Source of the DNA: Achromobacter sp. AONIH1
GTDB taxonomy: Bacteria; Pseudomonadota; Gammaproteobacteria; Burkholderiales; Burkholderiaceae_B
NCBI RefSeq assembly: GCF_002902905.1
Contig: NZ_CP026124.1
Span: 3,162,001 to 3,226,000 of the forward strand
DNA length: 64,000 bases
Direction of reading: 5' to 3'
Positions 35,710 to 45,112 of the stretch are shown in pieces. The notes under the pieces are model-generated. The model did not search any database. It saw nothing but the letters and a program-made list of their open reading frames with translations, and was not told the DNA's origin. The translations under genes were made by a program, and so were the position numbers. Position 1 is the stretch's first letter. Each line of letters opens with the position of its first letter.

Positions 35710-35738
35710 CCGCAACGATTCAAGACAAGGATGACTAC

Positions 35739-36560
35739 ATGACTGCCAAAACCCTGCCCGTCCGCCTGGAGGCGGTGATCTTCGACTGGGCCGGCACGCT
35801 GGTCGACTTCGGCTCCTTCGCGCCCACCAAGGTGTTCGTCGACGCTTTCGCGCAGTTCGGCGTGGAGATGTCGCTGGAAGTGGCCCGCGGCCCCATGGGC
35901 ATGGGCAAGTGGGACCACATCCGCACGCTGTGCGACCTGCCCGCCATCGCGTCCCAGTACGAGGCGCGTTTCGGCCGCCTGCCGACCGATGACGACGTCA
36001 CCGCCATCTACGAGCGCTTCCTGCCCATGCAGCTGGAAAAAGTGGCGCAGTACTCGGCCGCGATTCCCGGCGCCGCCGAGCAGCTGCGCGCATTGCGCCA
36101 GCGCGGCCTGAAGATCGGTTCGTGCTCGGGCTACCCGGCCAGCGTGATGCGCCGCGTGATCGAGCGCGCCGCCACCGAGGGGCTGGAGCCCGAATGCATC
36201 GTCGCCAGCGACGAGGTGCCGCGCGCGCGTCCCGCGCCGGCCATGGCGCTGAAGAACGTGATCGAGCTGGGCCTGTCCGACGTGGCCGCCTGCGTCAAGG
36301 TCGACGACACCGCCCCCGGCATCGAGGAAGGCCGCCGCGCCGGCATGTGGACGGTGGGCCTGCTGCTGTCCGGCAACGCCGCCGGCCTGACGCTGGAGGA
36401 ATACCTGAGCCTGGACGAGGCTGGCCGCGACGCCGCCCGCGCCCGGGCCGACGCCGAGCTGTCCGGCGCTGCGCCGCATTACCTGATCGACACGGTGGCC
36501 GACCTGCCGGCCGTGATCTCCGACATCGAACGCCGGCTGGCGGCGGGCCAGCGTCCCTGA
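35739..36560 (+). CDS. phnX: Phosphonoacetaldehyde hydrolase PhnX
   Basis: PhnX (phosphonatase) splits phosphonoacetaldehyde into acetaldehyde and phosphate. The 273-residue HAD-family enzyme has the nucleophile Asp16 in [10 protein letters not shown], the Schiff-base Lys57 in [10 protein letters not shown], a cap domain, [11 protein letters not shown] and the late acid motif [17 protein letters not shown] at 35739 is used; an ATG eight bases earlier ends at once. Its substrate is normally made from aminoethylphosphonate by PhnW, but no PhnW gene is present in this window. A hairpin with a T-run overlaps its 3' end. Confidence 0.95.
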
Positions 36561-36581
36561 GCTGCCCGCCACTTTTTTTTT
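36542..36581 (+). terminator. Terminator-like hairpin between phnX and the binding-protein gene
   Basis: GGCGGGC and GCCCGCC pair across a 15-nt loop that contains the phnX stop codon, and a run of nine T follows two bases later. The modest stem suggests partial termination inside the operon, which could set the level of the downstream genes, or the binding protein may have its own promoter. Confidence 0.6.
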
Positions 36582-36675
36582 CCCTGCGACGTTTTCGCAC
36601 GACCTGCGCGGCGGCCATCCGGCCAGCCGCGTGACCTTCATCAGTCTTTTTTCCGCTCATCCACGGAGTACACAC

Positions 36676-37698
36676 ATGAATCGCTACAAGCTGCTTGCCC
36701 TGGCCGCCGCCCTGTCGGGCGTGATGGGCGCCGCCTCCGCCGAGACCACGCTGACGGTCTACACCGCGCTGGAAGCCGACCAGATCAAGGCCTACCAGGC
36801 CGCGTTCGAGAAGGCCAATCCCGACATCAAGATCCAGTGGGTGCGCGATTCCACCGGCATCATCACCGCCAAGCTGCTGGCCGAGAAGAACAACCCCAAG
36901 GCCGACGCCATCTGGGGCCTGGCCGGCACCTCGCTGGGCCTGATGGACAAGGAAGGCATGCTGCAGCCCTACGCCCCCAAGCGCCTGGACCAGATCGCCG
37001 CCAACATGCGTGACGCCAAGGCCGAGCCCTCCTGGGTCGGCATGGACGGCTTCGCCGCCGCCATCTGCTTCAACACCGTCGAGGCCGAAAAGCAGAAGCT
37101 GCCCAAGCCCACGTCGTGGCAGGACCTGACCAAGCCCGAGTACGCCGGCAAGATCGTCATGCCGAACCCGGCCTCGTCGGGCACCGGCTTCCTGGACGTC
37201 AGCGCCTGGCTGCAGATCTTCGGCGAAGAGAAGGGCTGGGCCTACATGGACGCCCTGCACAAGAACATCGGCTCGTACACGCACTCGGGCTCCAAGCCTT
37301 GCAACCTGGCCGCCTCGGGCGAGTTCCCGATCGGCGTCTCGTTCGACTACCGCGCCGCCAAGCTGAAGGCCGACGGCGCGCCGGTCGAAGCCGTGTTCCC
37401 GTCGGAAGGCCTGGGCTGGGAAGTCGAAGCCACCGCCATCGTCAAGGGCACCAAGAACCTGGAAGCCGCCCGCAAGCTGGCCGACTTCTCCGCCAGCCGC
37501 GAGGCCAACGAGCTGTACAAGGCCAACTTCGCCGTGCTGGCCATCCCGTCGATCGCCACGTCCAACCCGAACCTGCCGGCCGATCTGACCAAGCGCATGA
37601 TCAAGAACGACTTCACCTGGGCCGCCACCAACCGCGATCGCATCATCGCCGAGTGGACCAAGCGCTACGACGGCAAGTCCGAGCCGAAGAAGAAGTAA
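36676..37698 (+). CDS. phnS: 2-Aminoethylphosphonate periplasmic binding protein
   Basis: The 340-residue protein has a 22-residue signal peptide (MNRYKLLALAAALSGVMGAA, cleavage after SA) and the fold of Fe3+/phosphonate binding proteins: TTLTVYTALEADQIKAYQ at the mature start, DAIWGLAGTSLGLMDKEG, MPNPASSGTGFLDVSAW and GEFPIGVSFDYRA. This is the receptor type found with phnX and the fused permease (TIGR03261 type). It delivers the aminophosphonate to the PhnT/permease complex. A GC-rich hairpin (37713-37737, 10-bp stem, no T-run) follows. Confidence 0.9.
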   Translation: MNRYKLLALAAALSGVMGAASAETTLTVYTALEADQIKAYQAAFEKANPDIKIQWVRDSTGIITAKLLAEKNNPKADAIWGLAGTSLGLMDKEGMLQPYAPKRLDQIAANMRDAKAEPSWVGMDGFAAAICFNTVEAEKQKLPKPTSWQDLTKPEYAGKIVMPNPASSGTGFLDVSAWLQIFGEEKGWAYMDALHKNIGSYTHSGSKPCNLAASGEFPIGVSFDYRAAKLKADGAPVEAVFPSEGLGWEVEATAIVKGTKNLEAARKLADFSASREANELYKANFAVLAIPSIATSNPNLPADLTKRMIKNDFTWAATNRDRIIAEWTKRYDGKSEPKKK

Positions 37699-37712
37699 GC
37701 AGGCAGGCGGCA

Positions 37713-37737
37713 GGGCAGCGCCGCGAGGGCGCTGCCC
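37713..37737 (+). terminator. Stem-loop after the binding-protein gene
   Basis: GGGCAGCGCC and GGCGCTGCCC form a perfect 10-bp stem with a 5-nt loop. No T-run follows, so it may protect the 3' end of the abundant binding-protein mRNA more than stop transcription. Confidence 0.45.
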
Positions 37738-37811
37738 GCTTCATCCCGGTTCACCTTTCAGTTTCACCTTTCCGTTCTTCGTCGCGTTGAAACGCTTCCC
37801 GCCGAAGCCGG

Positions 37812-37900
37812 GCGGGGCCGCACGGAACCGGCTTTGCCGGTCCGTCGCGGCGCCCCCTTGAGGGGGAAGCGCCCAAGCGCTTCGGAGGTGGGTTCTCTAC
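37812..37900. repeat. Intergenic repeat, copy B
   Basis: This 89-bp sequence matches copy A (16396-16476) with a few substitutions and small insertions. Its last part (TTCGGAGGTGGGTTCTCTAC) ends 2 bp before the FAD oxidase ATG, so the repeat supplies the only Shine-Dalgarno-like GGAGG (37884-37888) for that gene, about 14 nt from the start. Confidence 0.75.
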
Positions 37901-37902
37901 AC

Positions 37903-39033
37903 ATGAAGAATTTTGACGTAATCGTGGTGGGCGCGGGCATGCTTGGCATCGCGCATGCCTGGGCGGCCGCCAAGCGCGGGCTGTCGGTGGCCGTGATCGA
38001 GCGCAGCCGCCAGGCGCACGGCGCCACGATCCGCAACTTTGGCCAGGTGATCGTGACCGGCCAGGCGCCCGGCATGATGCTGTCGCATGCGCAGCAGGCG
38101 CGCGAGCTGTGGCTGGACCTGGCCGCCAAGGCGGGCTTTCATGTGCGCGCCAACGGCGCGCTGGTGCTGGCGCGCAACGCCGACGAGGCCGACGTGCTGC
38201 AGGAGTTCGCCGACACGCGTCTGCGGCAGGAAGGCTATCGCGCCGAGCTGCTGTCGGGCCGCGAGGTCGCCGCGCTGTACGACGGCCGCCTGGCGCACCA
38301 CTGCGCCGCGCTGCGCGGCCTGGACGATCTGCAGATCTATTCGCGCGAGGCGCTGCCCGCCATCACCCGCTATCTGGCGGAATCGCTGGGCGTGACCTTC
38401 ATCACCGGCACGCTGGCGCGCGCGGTGGAGCAGGGCCGGGTGGCGACCACTGCCGGCGAGTTCCGTGGCGATCATGTGTTCGTCTGCCCCGGCCATGATT
38501 ACCTGACGCTGCTGCCGGAACGCTTCGCGCCGCTGAACCTGGAAGTCACGCGCCTGCAGATGCTGCGCGCGGCCTTCGAGTCGGCCCCGTTCGCGCTGGA
38601 CCGGCCGCTGTTGACCGGTCTGTCCTGCGTGCACTACGGCGCGTTCTCGGACCTGCCGTCCGCGCTGGCGCTGCGCGAGGTGATCCAGGCGCGCACGCCC
38701 ATGCTGCTGGATAACGGCATCCACCTGCTGGTCAGCCCCACGCCCTATGGCGAGCTGATCATCGGCGATTCGCACCAGTACGGCCAGGACGCGCCCCCGT
38801 TCAACGACGAGGCGGTCGACAACGCGATGCTGGACCTGGCCTCGCAGGCGCTGGGCGCGCGGCTGCGCGTGGTCGAGCGCTGGCAGGGCGTGTATGGCGC
38901 GCACGGCCCGGCGCCGTTCTCGGTCATGCCGGTGGACGACGCGACCACGGTCGCCGTGATGCACTCGGGCGTGGGCATGACGGTGGGCCTGGCGATCGGC
39001 GAGCGCACGGTGGCGGGCGTCACCGGACGCTGA
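37903..39033 (+). CDS. FAD-dependent amino(phosphonate) oxidase, DAO family
   Basis: The 376-residue protein starts with a dinucleotide-binding fold (FDVIVVGAGMLGIAHAWAAA, then VIERS) and belongs to the D-amino-acid/glycine oxidase superfamily. NFGQVIVTGQAPGM and the C-terminal GVYGAHGPAPFSV and HSGVGMTVGLAIGE segments point to the phosphonate-associated group (TIGR03364 type, proposed to deaminate aminophosphonates oxidatively). With PhnX nearby and no PhnW, it could make phosphonoacetaldehyde from aminoethylphosphonate or an N-substituted or hydroxylated analogue. It lies 204 bp after the binding protein, behind repeat copy B. Confidence 0.82.
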   Translation: MKNFDVIVVGAGMLGIAHAWAAAKRGLSVAVIERSRQAHGATIRNFGQVIVTGQAPGMMLSHAQQARELWLDLAAKAGFHVRANGALVLARNADEADVLQEFADTRLRQEGYRAELLSGREVAALYDGRLAHHCAALRGLDDLQIYSREALPAITRYLAESLGVTFITGTLARAVEQGRVATTAGEFRGDHVFVCPGHDYLTLLPERFAPLNLEVTRLQMLRAAFESAPFALDRPLLTGLSCVHYGAFSDLPSALALREVIQARTPMLLDNGIHLLVSPTPYGELIIGDSHQYGQDAPPFNDEAVDNAMLDLASQALGARLRVVERWQGVYGAHGPAPFSVMPVDDATTVAVMHSGVGMTVGLAIGERTVAGVTGR

Positions 39034-39139: not shown

Positions 39140-40285
39140 TCAGGGCTCTCCCATGGTGCGCCGGTACCATTCATGGAAGTGCTGCATGCCGTCTTCCATG
39201 GGCGACTGGTACGGGCCGGTCTCGTTCACGCCGCGCAGCATCAGGGCCTTGCGGCCGGCGTCCATGCGCTCGGCGATCTCGTCGTCCTCGATCGCCGTTT
39301 CCATGTAGGCCGCGCGCTGCGCCTCGACGAACTCGCGCTCGAAGGCGGCGATTTCCTCGGGGTAGTAGAACTCGACCACGTTCACCGTTTCCTGCGGGCT
39401 CTTCGGGTACAGCGTGGACAGCACCAGCACGTGCGGATACAGCTCGATCATGTGGGTCGGGAAATACGTGACCCAGACCGCGCCGAAATCGGGCGCGTCG
39501 CCCTCGCGGAACGACAGCAGCCGGTCATGCCACTGCTTGTAGACCTCGGAACCCGGCTGGGCCAGCGCATTGTGCACGCCGACCTTCTGCAGGCTGTACC
39601 AATCGTTGAACTCCCAGGTCAGGTCGTCGCAGGTGACGAAGCGGCCCAGGCCCGGATGGAACGGGCCGACGTGGTAGTCCTCGAGGTAGACCTCGATGAA
39701 GGTTTTCCAGTTGTAGTTGCACTGGTGCACTTCCACATGGTCCAGCACGTAGTCGCCGAAGTCGAACTCCGGCCGCGCGAACAGCGGCGCCATGTCCGAG
39801 GCGGGATCGCGCGGGCCTTCGAACAGCAGGCCGTGGCAATCGCGCAGGCGGAACTTCTGCAGGTTCATGCAGGGCGTGGTGTCGAACTGAGGCGCGCCCA
39901 GCAGCTCGCCCTGGTTGTTGTAGGTCCAGCGGTGCAGGGGGCAGACGATGTTGCCCCCGGTGGCCTTCAGGCTGCCGTGCGTGTTGCAGTTGCCGGCCAC
40001 GTTGCCGGTTTCTCCGCCAAGCATCAGCGCCTGACGGTGGCGGCAGACATTTGAGATGAGATCGACGCCTTGCTGGTTGCGAACCAGCACACGCCCTCCG
40101 TTTTCCTGGACCAGGGTACGCCAATCCCCCACTTCGGGCACCAGCTTCTGGTGGCCGACGTACTGCGAGGATTGCTTGAAAATGAGTTCTTGCTCGCGGG
40201 CAAAGAGGGCTTCGTCAAAATACGCGCTGACGGGTAGCTGGGTGCGAGCTGGCACGACATGTGCCATCCGACCGATGTCGGTCAT
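39140..40285 (-). CDS. Rieske non-heme iron oxygenase, alpha subunit
   Basis: The 381-residue protein has a Rieske domain with ligands Cys81-x-His83 (CRH) and Cys115-x2-His118 (CPLH). Thirty-one residues separate the two pairs against about 15-17 in most family members; the insert adds Cys100 and His103. The catalytic domain has NWKTFIEVYLEDYHVGPFHP, giving His205 and His210 of the mononuclear iron site. It would need a reductase, which is not adjacent. Substrate is unknown. The start has a strong GGAGG 5 nt before it. A long structured leader with an intrinsic terminator precedes it (40286-40512), so expression is probably controlled by RNA-level attenuation. Confidence 0.85.
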   Translation of the reverse strand: MTDIGRMAHVVPARTQLPVSAYFDEALFAREQELIFKQSSQYVGHQKLVPEVGDWRTLVQENGGRVLVRNQQGVDLISNVCRHRQALMLGGETGNVAGNCNTHGSLKATGGNIVCPLHRWTYNNQGELLGAPQFDTTPCMNLQKFRLRDCHGLLFEGPRDPASDMAPLFARPEFDFGDYVLDHVEVHQCNYNWKTFIEVYLEDYHVGPFHPGLGRFVTCDDLTWEFNDWYSLQKVGVHNALAQPGSEVYKQWHDRLLSFREGDAPDFGAVWVTYFPTHMIELYPHVLVLSTLYPKSPQETVNVVEFYYPEEIAAFEREFVEAQRAAYMETAIEDDEIAERMDAGRKALMLRGVNETGPYQSPMEDGMQHFHEWYRRTMGEP

Positions 40286-40512
40286 GATTCCCTCCGCTCG
40301 GGTAAAAAAGCCAGGCGGGCTGAGCTTTGCCTGCAGCCCTGGCCGTATCCCACCTTGGGATCGCCCCGGGCCTCGCGGGTTCCCCCAAGGTGCCGGGGAA
40401 GCGGCGGATGCCGTCGTTGCTGCCGACGCTTACCGCCGATGTTTCCGCTATCAGGGTCCGCAATGTGCCCGTTCTGGCGCGAAGAAAAATCGGTGTCTGG
40501 CCGATCAAATAA
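40286..40512 (-). ncRNA. Structured leader RNA of the Rieske gene, riboswitch-like
   Basis: Read on the minus strand, the leader contains three parts. First comes a two-stem domain (40403-40437) with outer stem GGCGG/CCGCC, a 4x4 internal loop and inner stem CGTCG/CGACG. Next is a predicted H-type pseudoknot (40351-40398): 9-bp stem CACCTTGGG/CCCAAGGTG whose loop CCGGGG (minus strand, 40364-40369) can pair with CCCCGG (40393-40398) right beside the stem. Last is an intrinsic terminator (40304-40343). This order is that of a ligand-sensing aptamer plus expression platform. I could not match it to a known riboswitch class. The rest of the gap up to 40659 shows no gene. Confidence 0.55.
40304..40343 (-). 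terminator. Intrinsic terminator in the Rieske leader
   Basis: On the minus strand GCCA-GGGCTG pairs with CAGCCC-(GCC)-TGGC, a 10-bp stem with a 3-nt bulge and an 11-nt loop, followed at once by six T. It ends 18 nt before the start codon, so it must be read through for the oxygenase to be made. Confidence 0.72.
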
Positions 40513-40519
40513 GGCGTGA

Positions 40520-40525
40520 ATTGTA
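40520..40525 (-). promoter_or_regulatory. Possible -10 box for the Rieske leader RNA
   Basis: TACAAT on the minus strand (5 of 6) would start a transcript near 40512 and give a leader of about 230 nt. No good -35 is seen 16-18 bp upstream. Confidence 0.4.
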
Positions 40526-40659
40526 CCCCAACCCTTTTTCCCGCGCCCATGATGGCGCAAGGGACTTGGCGGGGCGAGACGGGGTTGCGCTTGACCTGGC
40601 GCAAACGGGCTCGTTCTGGGCACCTGGCGGCGGGCGTCGATCCATTCGGCCTACGCCTT

Positions 40660-41670
40660 TCAGACCAGCCTGCGGGTCGCGGGATGACGCCGCAACAGCC
40701 AGCTGCTCGCGGCCGACAGGGCGAACACGGCCGCCGTCAGCAAGGGCAGCGTCCAGGCCGTGCCGTGGCCGCCGCGCAGCAGACCCGCGCGCTGCGCCAG
40801 GTCCAGGAACACCGGATGGATCAGGTAGACGCCGAAGGTCAGCGGCGCCAGCCGCGCGAGCCGGGGCAGGCGCGGCGCGTCCACGATCAGCTGGAACGCG
40901 GCCAGCGACATGAACGGCACGGTCAGGCTGAAGTAGTCATAGAAGTAGGTGTTGAGCATCCGTGAGCTGGACAGCAGGTACACGCCCAGGGCCGTGGCGG
41001 CCACGCTGGCCGCCAGCATCAGGCCGGGGCGGGGAATGCGCAGCTCGCCCGCGTGGATCATGCGCCCGGCGACGAAATACCCCAGATAGGGCAGGAACCA
41101 GGTCAGGAAGAAGCCGGGCGGGGCGTCCAGCGCGCGGCGGTACAGCGCGTCCAGGATCGCCAGGCCAAGGATGCCCACGACCCACAGGGCGCGGGCCTGG
41201 CGCGAACTGCGCGCCGCCAGCGCGCGCACCAGCGGCGCGAACAGGTACAGGCCCACGATCATGTACAGGTACCACAGGTGATAGTAGGGCTCGCCATGGG
41301 CCAGCTTGCGCGGCCAGAAGGACAGGTCCAGCCGGCCGTCGTCGATCCAGTCCAGCGCCGTGCGCCAGAGCAGGTAGAACAGCGTCCAGAACAGCAGCGG
41401 CGCGCAGATCCGCGCCACGCGGCGGCTGTAGAAGCGGCGCGCGTCCTGCGGCCGTTCGGGGTCCAGCAGCAGGGCGCCGCTGATCATCACGAACACCGGC
41501 ACGCACCAGCGGGCCGCCGAGTCGTACAGGTTGGCCGCCAGCCAGGCGCCGCTGCCGTAGGCTGCCGGGTCGCTGACCACGGTCGCGGCGCCATGCAGCA
41601 TCACCACGGCCACGGCGGCCAGCCAGCGGGCGGCGTCCAGGCGGGCGTATCGATCGTCGGATTCGGGCAT
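40660..41670 (-). CDS. Acyltransferase 3 family membrane protein
   Basis: The 336-residue protein has about ten membrane helices and the acyltransferase_3 pattern (OafA/WecH type): RLDAARWLAAVAVVMLHGAA near the start with the conserved His in helix 1, FVMISGALLL, FYSRRVARICAPLLFWTLFY with the conserved Arg, and HLWYLYMIVGLYLFAPLVRA. Such enzymes move acetyl or succinyl groups onto surface sugars; the acceptor is unknown. It is not in an obvious operon with polysaccharide genes. It is most like the short WecH group by length. Confidence 0.85.
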   Translation of the reverse strand: MPESDDRYARLDAARWLAAVAVVMLHGAATVVSDPAAYGSGAWLAANLYDSAARWCVPVFVMISGALLLDPERPQDARRFYSRRVARICAPLLFWTLFYLLWRTALDWIDDGRLDLSFWPRKLAHGEPYYHLWYLYMIVGLYLFAPLVRALAARSSRQARALWVVGILGLAILDALYRRALDAPPGFFLTWFLPYLGYFVAGRMIHAGELRIPRPGLMLAASVAATALGVYLLSSSRMLNTYFYDYFSLTVPFMSLAAFQLIVDAPRLPRLARLAPLTFGVYLIHPVFLDLAQRAGLLRGGHGTAWTLPLLTAAVFALSAASSWLLRRHPATRRLV

Positions 41671-43885: not shown

Positions 43886-43926
43886 TCCACGGATTGATCC
43901 ACCCGATTGCGTTCCCGGAGGCCCTT

Positions 43927-44193
43927 TTGGCCAAACCTTCACAAGCCGATCCGCAGGTCGACGACCGCCCCTTGCCCCAGGATTTCGAAACGGCGCTGGC
44001 CGAGCTGGAGTCGCTGGTCGCGGCCATGGAAGACGGCTCGCTGCCGCTGGAGCAGTCGCTGGCGGCCTACCGCCGCGGCGTCGAGCTCACGCGCGTCTGC
44101 CAGGACCGCCTGGCGCAGGCCGAGCAGCAGGTGAAAGTGCTGGAGGGCGACTTGCTGCGCCCGCTGGATCCGGCGGCGCTGGACGACGAATAA
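43927..44193 (+). CDS. xseB: Exodeoxyribonuclease VII small subunit
   Basis: XseB pairs with XseA to degrade single-stranded DNA. The 88-residue protein shows the family core: DFETALAELESLVAAMEDG, then LPLEQSLAAYRRGVELTRVC. The TTG at 43927 is chosen since GGAGG lies 6 nt before it and it gives the normal length; an earlier TTG at 43894 has no such site. It leads the xseB-ispA-dxs operon, the common order in proteobacteria. ispA begins 7 bp after the stop. Confidence 0.93.
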   Translation: MAKPSQADPQVDDRPLPQDFETALAELESLVAAMEDGSLPLEQSLAAYRRGVELTRVCQDRLAQAEQQVKVLEGDLLRPLDPAALDDE

Positions 44194-44200
44194 GACTCGG

Positions 44201-45112
44201 ATGAAGCAGACTCAACTCGCATTTCCGGAATGGCTGCAGGGCCGTGTCCGCCACGTCGAAGACGTCCTGGACGACCTGCTGCCCCCGGCCGACGCGCTGC
44301 CCGCGCGCCTGCACGAAGCCATGCGCTACGCCACGCTGGGCGGCGGCAAGCGCGTGCGCGCGGCGCTGGTCTACGCGGCCGGCCAGGCCTGCCCCGTCAG
44401 CGGCAGCGTGCTCGCCATCGAGGCCTCGCTGGACCGCGCGGCCGCGGCCGTGGAACTGATCCACGCCTATTCGCTGGTGCACGACGACCTGCCCTGCATG
44501 GACGACGACACGCTGCGCCGCGGCCGTCCCACCGCCCACGTGCAGTTCGACGAAGCCACCGCCATGCTGGCCGGCGACGCCCTGCAGCCGCTGGCGTTCG
44601 ACCTGCTGGCGTCGATGCCGATCGCGCCCGCGCTGATCGTGCAGGCCACGCAGTCGCTGGCGCGCGCCGCCGGCAGCCAGGGCATGGCCGGCGGCCAGGC
44701 CATCGACCTGTTCAGCGTCGGCCGTGCGCTGTCGCGCGACGAACTGCAGACCATGCACAGCATGAAGACCGGCGCGATGGTGGCGTGCAGCGTGGCGCTG
44801 GGCGGCATCGTGGCCGGCGCCAGCTCGGCCTCGCGCCAGGCACTGGATGTGTACGCGCAGGCCATGGGCCTGGCCTTCCAGGTGGTGGACGACATCCTGG
44901 ACGTGACGGCGGACAGCGCCAGCCTGGGCAAGACGCCGGGCAAGGACGCCGCCGAGAACAAGCCCACCTACGTGTCCCTGCTGGGCCTGGACGAGGCGCG
45001 CGCCTTCGCCGGGGAACTGCGCTCGACCGCGCTGGCGGCGCTGGAACCGCTGGGCGACGCGGGCTTGCGCCTGGCCCAGCTGGCCGATTTCATCGTACTT
45101 CGGGATCGCTGA
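44201..45112 (+). CDS. ispA: Farnesyl diphosphate synthase
   Basis: IspA condenses dimethylallyl and geranyl diphosphates with isopentenyl diphosphate to farnesyl diphosphate. The 303-residue protein has the first Asp-rich motif HDDLPCMDDDTLRRG (Asp95 on), GGGKRVRAAL for isopentenyl diphosphate binding, the Lys-Thr pair in MKTGAMVACSVALGG and the second Asp-rich motif FQVVDDILD. Small residues before the first motif fit a C15 product. It lies between xseB and dxs, so precursor supply genes are co-expressed. Confidence 0.95.
   Translation: MKQTQLAFPEWLQGRVRHVEDVLDDLLPPADALPARLHEAMRYATLGGGKRVRAALVYAAGQACPVSGSVLAIEASLDRAAAAVELIHAYSLVHDDLPCMDDDTLRRGRPTAHVQFDEATAMLAGDALQPLAFDLLASMPIAPALIVQATQSLARAAGSQGMAGGQAIDLFSVGRALSRDELQTMHSMKTGAMVACSVALGGIVAGASSASRQALDVYAQAMGLAFQVVDDILDVTADSASLGKTPGKDAAENKPTYVSLLGLDEARAFAGELRSTALAALEPLGDAGLRLAQLADFIVLRDR

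Follow-up and report, generated by a model that had tools for sequence, protein, structure and literature searches.

What the leader in front of a Rieske oxygenase gene of Achromobacter sp. AONIH1 does is not settled by the fact that it folds well, because even a stable structure in a leader may have no switching function. The gene lies at 39140–40285 on the minus strand of the window, the whole stretch of 64,000 nucleotides that was analysed. It encodes a 381-amino-acid protein of the Rieske [2Fe-2S], ring-hydroxylating alpha type (Pfam PF00848 and PF00355), for which no NCBIfam model scores at or above its cut-off. Homologues (E ≤ 0.001) occur in 181 of 200 family genomes, part of them weak, and a relative with 78% identity (P0084) carries the source name 'iron-sulfur protein in siderophore [Alcaligin] cluster'. 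The original prediction took the leader for a riboswitch, with an aptamer followed by a terminator. The comparison with relatives points instead, with a probability of roughly 0.6, to an Alcaligenaceae-specific cis-regulatory RNA that would sequester the Shine-Dalgarno (SD) sequence and be dedicated to this one gene; we infer the regulation from sequence conservation and calculated folds. The element itself is real, gene-specific, absent from Rfam and apparently undescribed, and a literature search of open-licence PMC papers gave no paper naming this leader. If the reading is true, the leader is an RNA family new to Rfam 15 whose credible matches all precede a single oxygenase gene, and it offers a direct handle on the control of a widespread Rieske gene.

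The observation that started the analysis is confirmed: a structured leader precedes the gene, it is conserved, and in this genus it has a hairpin and a U-run before the SD. Against dinucleotide shuffles, the complete leader scores z −2.51 in one comparison, where 2 of 200 shuffles do at least as well, and z −2.66 in another (2 of 500). All of the pairings listed in the original prediction are present, with coordinates that agree to within about a base. The hairpin with a 4x4 internal loop (40438–40433 with 40407–40402 and 40428–40424 with 40416–40412) reaches probabilities of 0.88–1.0 in the nested ensemble, and an H-type pseudoknot can be drawn between CCCCGG (40398–40393), directly 5′ of a 9-bp stem, and CCGGGG (40369–40364) in the loop of that stem. 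The 9-bp stem itself (CACCTTGGG/CCCAAGGTG, 40392–40384 with 40359–40351) is perfect in the sequence, but its probability in the nested ensemble is 0.00. The proposed terminator shares this fate: its arms GCCAGGGCTG (40343–40334) and CAGCCCGCCTGGC (40322–40310) exist and form 10 pairs with a 3-nt bulge, followed by T6 (40309–40304), which leaves 18 nt to the start codon at 40285, but the base of the stem also stands at 0.00. Both values arise because two other helices, P2 (0.82–0.99) and P3 (0.99), dominate the ensemble and P3 takes the 3′ arm of the terminator; the ensemble is pseudoknot-free, and co-transcriptional folding could differ. Neither P2 and P3 nor a third helix, P1, had been listed in the original prediction.

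The leader, on the minus strand like the gene, is preceded by a putative promoter. A −10-like TACAAT (40520–40525), seen by eye as GGTACAAT in many relatives, would place the transcription start at about 40513; this candidate is drawn from conservation, since a promoter scan at the leader gave no sigma-70 pair. P1, the hairpin GATCGG(CCAGACA)CCGATT (40488–40506), lies near this presumed 5′ end and directly before a U-run, with pair probabilities of 0.77–0.98. It is the sole terminator-like pattern match in 40200–40720, where shuffles give 0.8; the scanner, with its loop limit of 8 nt, flagged neither P3 nor the originally proposed terminator. P2 joins the anti-SD strand UUUUCUUCGC (40479–40488) to GCGGAGGGAA (40288–40297), which contains the SD sequence GGAGG at 40295–40291. 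Nine of its ten pairs have probabilities of 0.82–0.99 in the window, the end pair 0.06. P3 pairs the 5′ arm GCCAG (40474–40478) with CUGGC (40310–40314) at a probability of 0.99, and a U6 (40304–40309) follows that is intrinsic-terminator-like in this lineage. As the 3′ arm of P3 is also the 3′ end of the originally proposed terminator stem, the two are mutually exclusive. Two 5′ arms in the window (40478–40474 and 40343–40338) share one 3′ arm, and either would give a terminator.

The second of these arms belongs to a 146-nt insert in the P3 loop (40321–40466), whose limits were set by an extension of P3 (40471–40467 with 40320–40316) of probability 0.37. The insert holds the 4x4-loop hairpin, the 9-bp stem and the drawable pseudoknot, and brings the alternative arm 40343–40334 for the 3′ arm of P3; either form would terminate. 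The leader is matched in 41 of 43 Achromobacter genomes, the window's own included, and every match in the other 40 covers only positions 1–44 or about 170–227 of the query. In this sequence-similarity search no match in the other 42 Achromobacter genomes reaches the 4x4 hairpin, the 9-bp stem or the pseudoknot, a comparison by sequence and not by fold. Conservation of these stems in orthologous leaders was the check named with the riboswitch proposal, and in this search they are unmatched outside the window's own genome. A DNA search of 200 family genomes gave the same picture, with matches in 56 that fall in two blocks (about query 1–48 and 181–227). One 29-nt match at query 85–113 (G031) was set aside as chance, the contig being different from the one that carries the Rieske gene of that genome. 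The distance between the two conserved blocks ranges in relatives from almost zero to more than 200 nt; where the leader is compact, often no more than 30–40 nt separate CUUCGC from the SD, too few for an aptamer-like domain. The insert alone folds at z −2.22 (12 of 500 shuffles as good). That it might be a repeated element was rejected, as the 355-nt leader region matches once in its own genome (E ≤ 0.001). In A. pulmonis and A. ruhlandii (L183 and L258, about 1389–1480), a GC-rich insert lies between the P3 U-run and the SD, so that inserts are not confined to the P3 loop. An insert that only one genome carries in a loop can look like an aptamer to anyone who reads that sequence alone.

The core that remains is about 85 nt long in its compact form and consists of P1, a U-run, CUUCGC, P3 with a variable loop and the SD region. 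In order, it runs from GGTACAAT through P1 (AUCGG...CCGAU or variants), a U-run of 3–8 U (mostly 5), CUUCGC, P3 and a spacer of about 8–14 nt to GCGGRGGGAAUC and the AUG. CUUCGC is among the most conserved stretches, and the arms of P3 are GCCAG/CUGGC, ACCAG/CUGGU, ACCGG/CCGGU or rarer types. This core was read in sets of 30, 60 and 80 upstream regions, which overlap in species and do not all contain the element; the set of 30 was taken without L049, L050, L052, L054 and L055. No small open reading frame is kept in the relatives inspected, as the P1 loop differs by 2 nt (CCAGACACCG / CCAGACCG) and the U-run varies from 3 to 8 T; a leader-peptide attenuator was rejected on this inspection.

Two models of the leader were built, R1 from 12 compact leaders and R2 from 64. 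R2 matches 109 of the 200 family genomes, from 29 of the 43 genera, and 59 of 80 named homologue loci (E ≤ 0.01), among them genomes of Bordetella, Achromobacter, Alcaligenes, Pigmentiphaga and Pusillimonas-like bacteria. Under strict filters it is found in six of 300 genomes of the order, all of its own family. Among the matches listed, 106 of 110 in the family end at the start of the Rieske gene, a placement made without the second-copy rows of G000, G008, G081, G092, G098 and G181, and in two of the remaining four (the window's own leader, G000, and G098:C6) an insert interrupts the leader. One further match (L263) lies at the start of a Rieske gene that is cut by the contig end. A match with E 0.0055 (L262) was taken as false, since it lies inside an open frame that looks ATP synthase subunit-like by eye. 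Each genome has one credible leader locus, and neither the family nor the order search gave a credible match in any other gene context. Under strict filters, 36 of the 144 genomes with an orthologue among the matches listed have no leader match, and five second-copy loci (L096, L101, L110, L111 and L112) do not match R1 at E ≤ 1. In L039/G181, an Achromobacter genome, the 5′ half of the leader is missing, P1 and the CUUCGC strand included, which amounts to a natural deletion. The statement that the leader fits no known class holds against Rfam 15: the whole window at the gathering cut-off returned only tRNA, the region 40100–40700 at E ≤ 10 only BjrC68 (10.4 bits against a cut-off of 39). Searches of 13 related loci (E ≤ 1) gave three weak matches, all below their cut-offs and outside the leader.

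Comparative support differs among the three helices. The alignment A6 comprises 97 chosen loci, including near-duplicates of species present in two collections, and A5 and A6 were fitted to the models R1 and R2, so that their pair counts lean towards the structure. In A6, 96.8% of the cells are paired, against 95.1% in shuffled alignments and 37–50% for slid structures, and 38 cells are double changes. None of 500 shuffles reaches the observed pairing percentage or covariation score, and two of 500 reach the number of further pair types. P3 covaries: 68 leaders have GC and 25 have AU at its first pair, 85 have AU and 8 have GC at its fourth, and on a tree of 41 proteins the pair types changed at least three times at each of two positions. 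When 5′ and 3′ arms were compared across leaders, at least 5 bp formed in 0.86 of the on-diagonal and 0.52 of the off-diagonal pairs, a weak test, in part since U.G pairing lets arms of the GCCAG and ACCAG types match each other; the arm and U-run counts cover the leaders with a regular-expression match. An alternative pairing of CCAG in the P1 loop with CUGG of P3 was dropped by eye because the P1 loop does not follow the changes in P3 (L077, L120). P1 is only weakly supported by covariation: 91.7% of its cells are paired in A6, the pair at columns 16–30 is unpaired in 23 of 89, its three double changes each occur in a single sequence, and most of its changes in 41 named leaders produce non-pairs.

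P2 is nearly invariant. In A6 it is 97.9–99.5% paired, with changes almost only from U-A to U.G and one double-change cell across ten pairs. A1, a structure-blind MAFFT alignment of 43 leaders, is free of the bias of A5 and A6, and from it RNAalifold predicts the ten P2 pairs and nothing else; P1 and P3 were not returned from this alignment, in which some of the P3 arms are misaligned. Eight of the P2 pairs are invariant in A1, one changes from U-A to U.G in 14 rows and two have one broken row each; the RNAalifold covariation term is only −0.17. Such near-invariance is expected if one strand binds 16S rRNA, but also if both strands are kept for another reason. That a conserved helix covers the SD of this one gene is supported by conservation and predicted pairing, with little covariation.

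The comparison supports the structural part of the proposed mechanism, in which UUUUCUUCGC pairs with GCGGRGGGAA as P2 and covers the SD, and P3 brings the two strands of P2 together and tolerates inserts in its loop. The folded leader would hold translation of the Rieske gene low until something opens P2. The energy model is consistent with such sequestration: the predicted mean pairing probability of the SD in the window is 0.99 at 37 °C, 0.98 at 42 °C and 0.95 at 50 °C, and in 21 of 23 chosen leaders the SD is paired to some partner with a predicted probability of at least 0.77 at 37 °C. Pairing is weaker in L214 (0.64) and L218 (0.52), and Alcaligenes pairs its SD partly elsewhere. In other SD-sequestering translational leaders, a conserved helix of the 5′-UTR covers the SD. 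The Rieske leader resembles them in its helix over the SD and differs in that no Rfam family has this sequence. Given the calculated stability of P2, a trans-acting opener (an RNA-binding protein, a small RNA or the Rieske protein itself) appears likelier than heat or a small ligand.

Five or more T occur within the 8 nt that follow P3 in 65 of 101 distinct leaders, the script having dropped 16 of 117 that lack a 5-bp P3. By arm type, they occur in 62 of 74 leaders with GCCAG, 3 of 17 with ACCAG and none of 10 with others. The U-run is thus not kept across the family, and as it is common only with GCCAG-type arms, transcription termination after P3 is probably a lineage addition. In most leaders with GCCAG arms, part of the transcripts would probably end at the U5–6, which would be attenuation. 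P2 and P3 are mutually compatible, so no classical terminator/antiterminator pair is seen, and inspection by eye gave no conserved antiterminator. The leader resembles intrinsic-terminator attenuators in its P3 and U6, which in the window end 18 nt short of the start codon, and is unlike them in that the U-run is mostly missing with other P3 arms and no conserved antiterminator is seen. In Bordetella pertussis, the rpsB leader (BprB) gives a short transcript that was read as inhibited downstream transcription (PMC3110155, main text). Its gene is not the Rieske gene, although another predicted region of that paper could be the Rieske leader; the words 'dioxygenase' and 'oxygenase' are absent from the main text of PMC3110155. 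Another parallel is the small RNA S17 of the same species, a conserved betaproteobacterial RNA encoded between BP3151 and coq7, which acts in trans with Hfq and has a single-stranded site complementary to ribosome-binding sites and an intrinsic terminator (PMC11722255). This site and the terminator have counterparts in the Rieske leader, whereas its different locus and its action in trans with Hfq set S17 apart.

These features bear on several other explanations. Most transcripts might stop at P3-U6, making the leader an attenuator or the source of a 5′-UTR-derived small RNA with possible trans action on other SDs. Its product would begin with a hairpin, expose UUUUCUUCGC as a single-stranded seed and end in a terminator, and this would be compatible with SD sequestration. 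The frequent U5–6 after GCCAG-type P3 (62/74), the conserved CUUCGC that would be unpaired in a terminated RNA, and the example of C/U-rich S17, aimed at ribosome-binding sites from another locus in B. pertussis (PMC11722255), argue for it. Only 3 of 27 leaders with other P3 types have the U-run, though CUUCGC and the SD complement persist there, and this reading is unlikely. A constitutive structure, which would keep expression low or stabilise the mRNA without switching, would explain why no conserved alternative pairing is seen and why the SD is predicted to be paired in 21 of 23 leaders, but the conservation of CUUCGC and GCGGRGGGAAUC over many genera would exceed what a weak ribosome-binding site needs. 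It is a somewhat improbable account that keeps some weight.

Heat and metabolites fare worse. FourU and ROSE thermometers place a U-rich strand with U.G pairs opposite the SD, and the same is true of P2, where several U.G pairs lie against the SD. Unlike them, however, the Rieske leader is stable to 50 °C in most of the calculated leaders, and it has no Rfam match. Seven leaders of nine planned were computed with the energy model: SD pairing at 50 °C is 0.95–0.97 in five and 0.88 in one, and in the Alcaligenes leader it stays flat near 0.65 with temperature. The SD helix does not melt within the growth range in this model, and a simple, FourU-like thermometer is very unlikely. The metabolite riboswitch of the original prediction fits a long structured leader before a metabolic-type gene, and its insert folds better than most shuffles. 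Its aptamer-like part has, however, no sequence match in the other 42 Achromobacter genomes, the conserved core nucleotides lie mostly in helices, and the element has one credible locus per genome and no Rfam match. The riboswitch reading is not supported and seems highly improbable.

The conserved signal may reach into the coding sequence. Gly5 of the Rieske protein is encoded by GGT in 44 of 45 orthologues with the leader, although GGT makes up 5 of 166 Gly codons in six open reading frames of the window, and in none of the six leaderless relatives that have Gly5 (L205, L207, L209, L227, L231 and L239). This suggests an RNA-level constraint extending into the coding start; early-codon bias can explain it too. 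A possible helix P4 would pair GACC (40283–40280, from the G of the ATG) with GGTC (40273–40270) across codons 2–6 on the minus strand. It shows no clear covariation and is retained as a suggestion, as early codons are often AT-rich anyway and two loci without a model match, with leaders that look divergent by eye (L235 and L243), also carry GGT at codon 5. The start of the gene (40270–40285 and 40240–40260) has rare codons, GGT at 5 and GCT at 13, common to many relatives.

Sister genera carry a different leader before their Rieske gene. All eight loci read in Taylorella, Pelistega and Advenella (L264–L271) have a hairpin loop UGACCCUUGG on varying complementary stems, then in most cases a U-rich tail, and a GGGGG-type SD. 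The pattern YATGACCCTTGGTRA occurs once each in 21 of 200 genomes from 4 genera; compared by hand among the matches listed, it is just upstream of a Rieske homologue in 18, and the other three genomes have no such gene among the matches listed. It is conceivable, if doubtful, that two RNA solutions control one gene and that the Alcaligenaceae leader is an undescribed switch with a trans-acting partner, perhaps the Fe-S protein itself or an iron-dependent small RNA. In the UGACCCUUGG leader, ACCCUU could pair with the SD. At the same eight loci an xseB-like gene seems by eye to be divergent from, and directly adjoining, the Rieske gene; in the window, xseB and a farnesyl diphosphate synthase gene lie a few kb from it, at 43894–45112. 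On the other side, 35736–39033 encodes phosphonoacetaldehyde hydrolase, the 2-aminoethylphosphonate-binding protein PhnS2 and a TIGR03364 (HpnW_proposed) FAD oxidoreductase. Polynucleobacter homologues (L259:1038-1168 and L261:1371-1501) show by eye a hairpin AUCGACCUGUCGAU and then UUAGCUUCGGCUGA with U6–7 before the SD.
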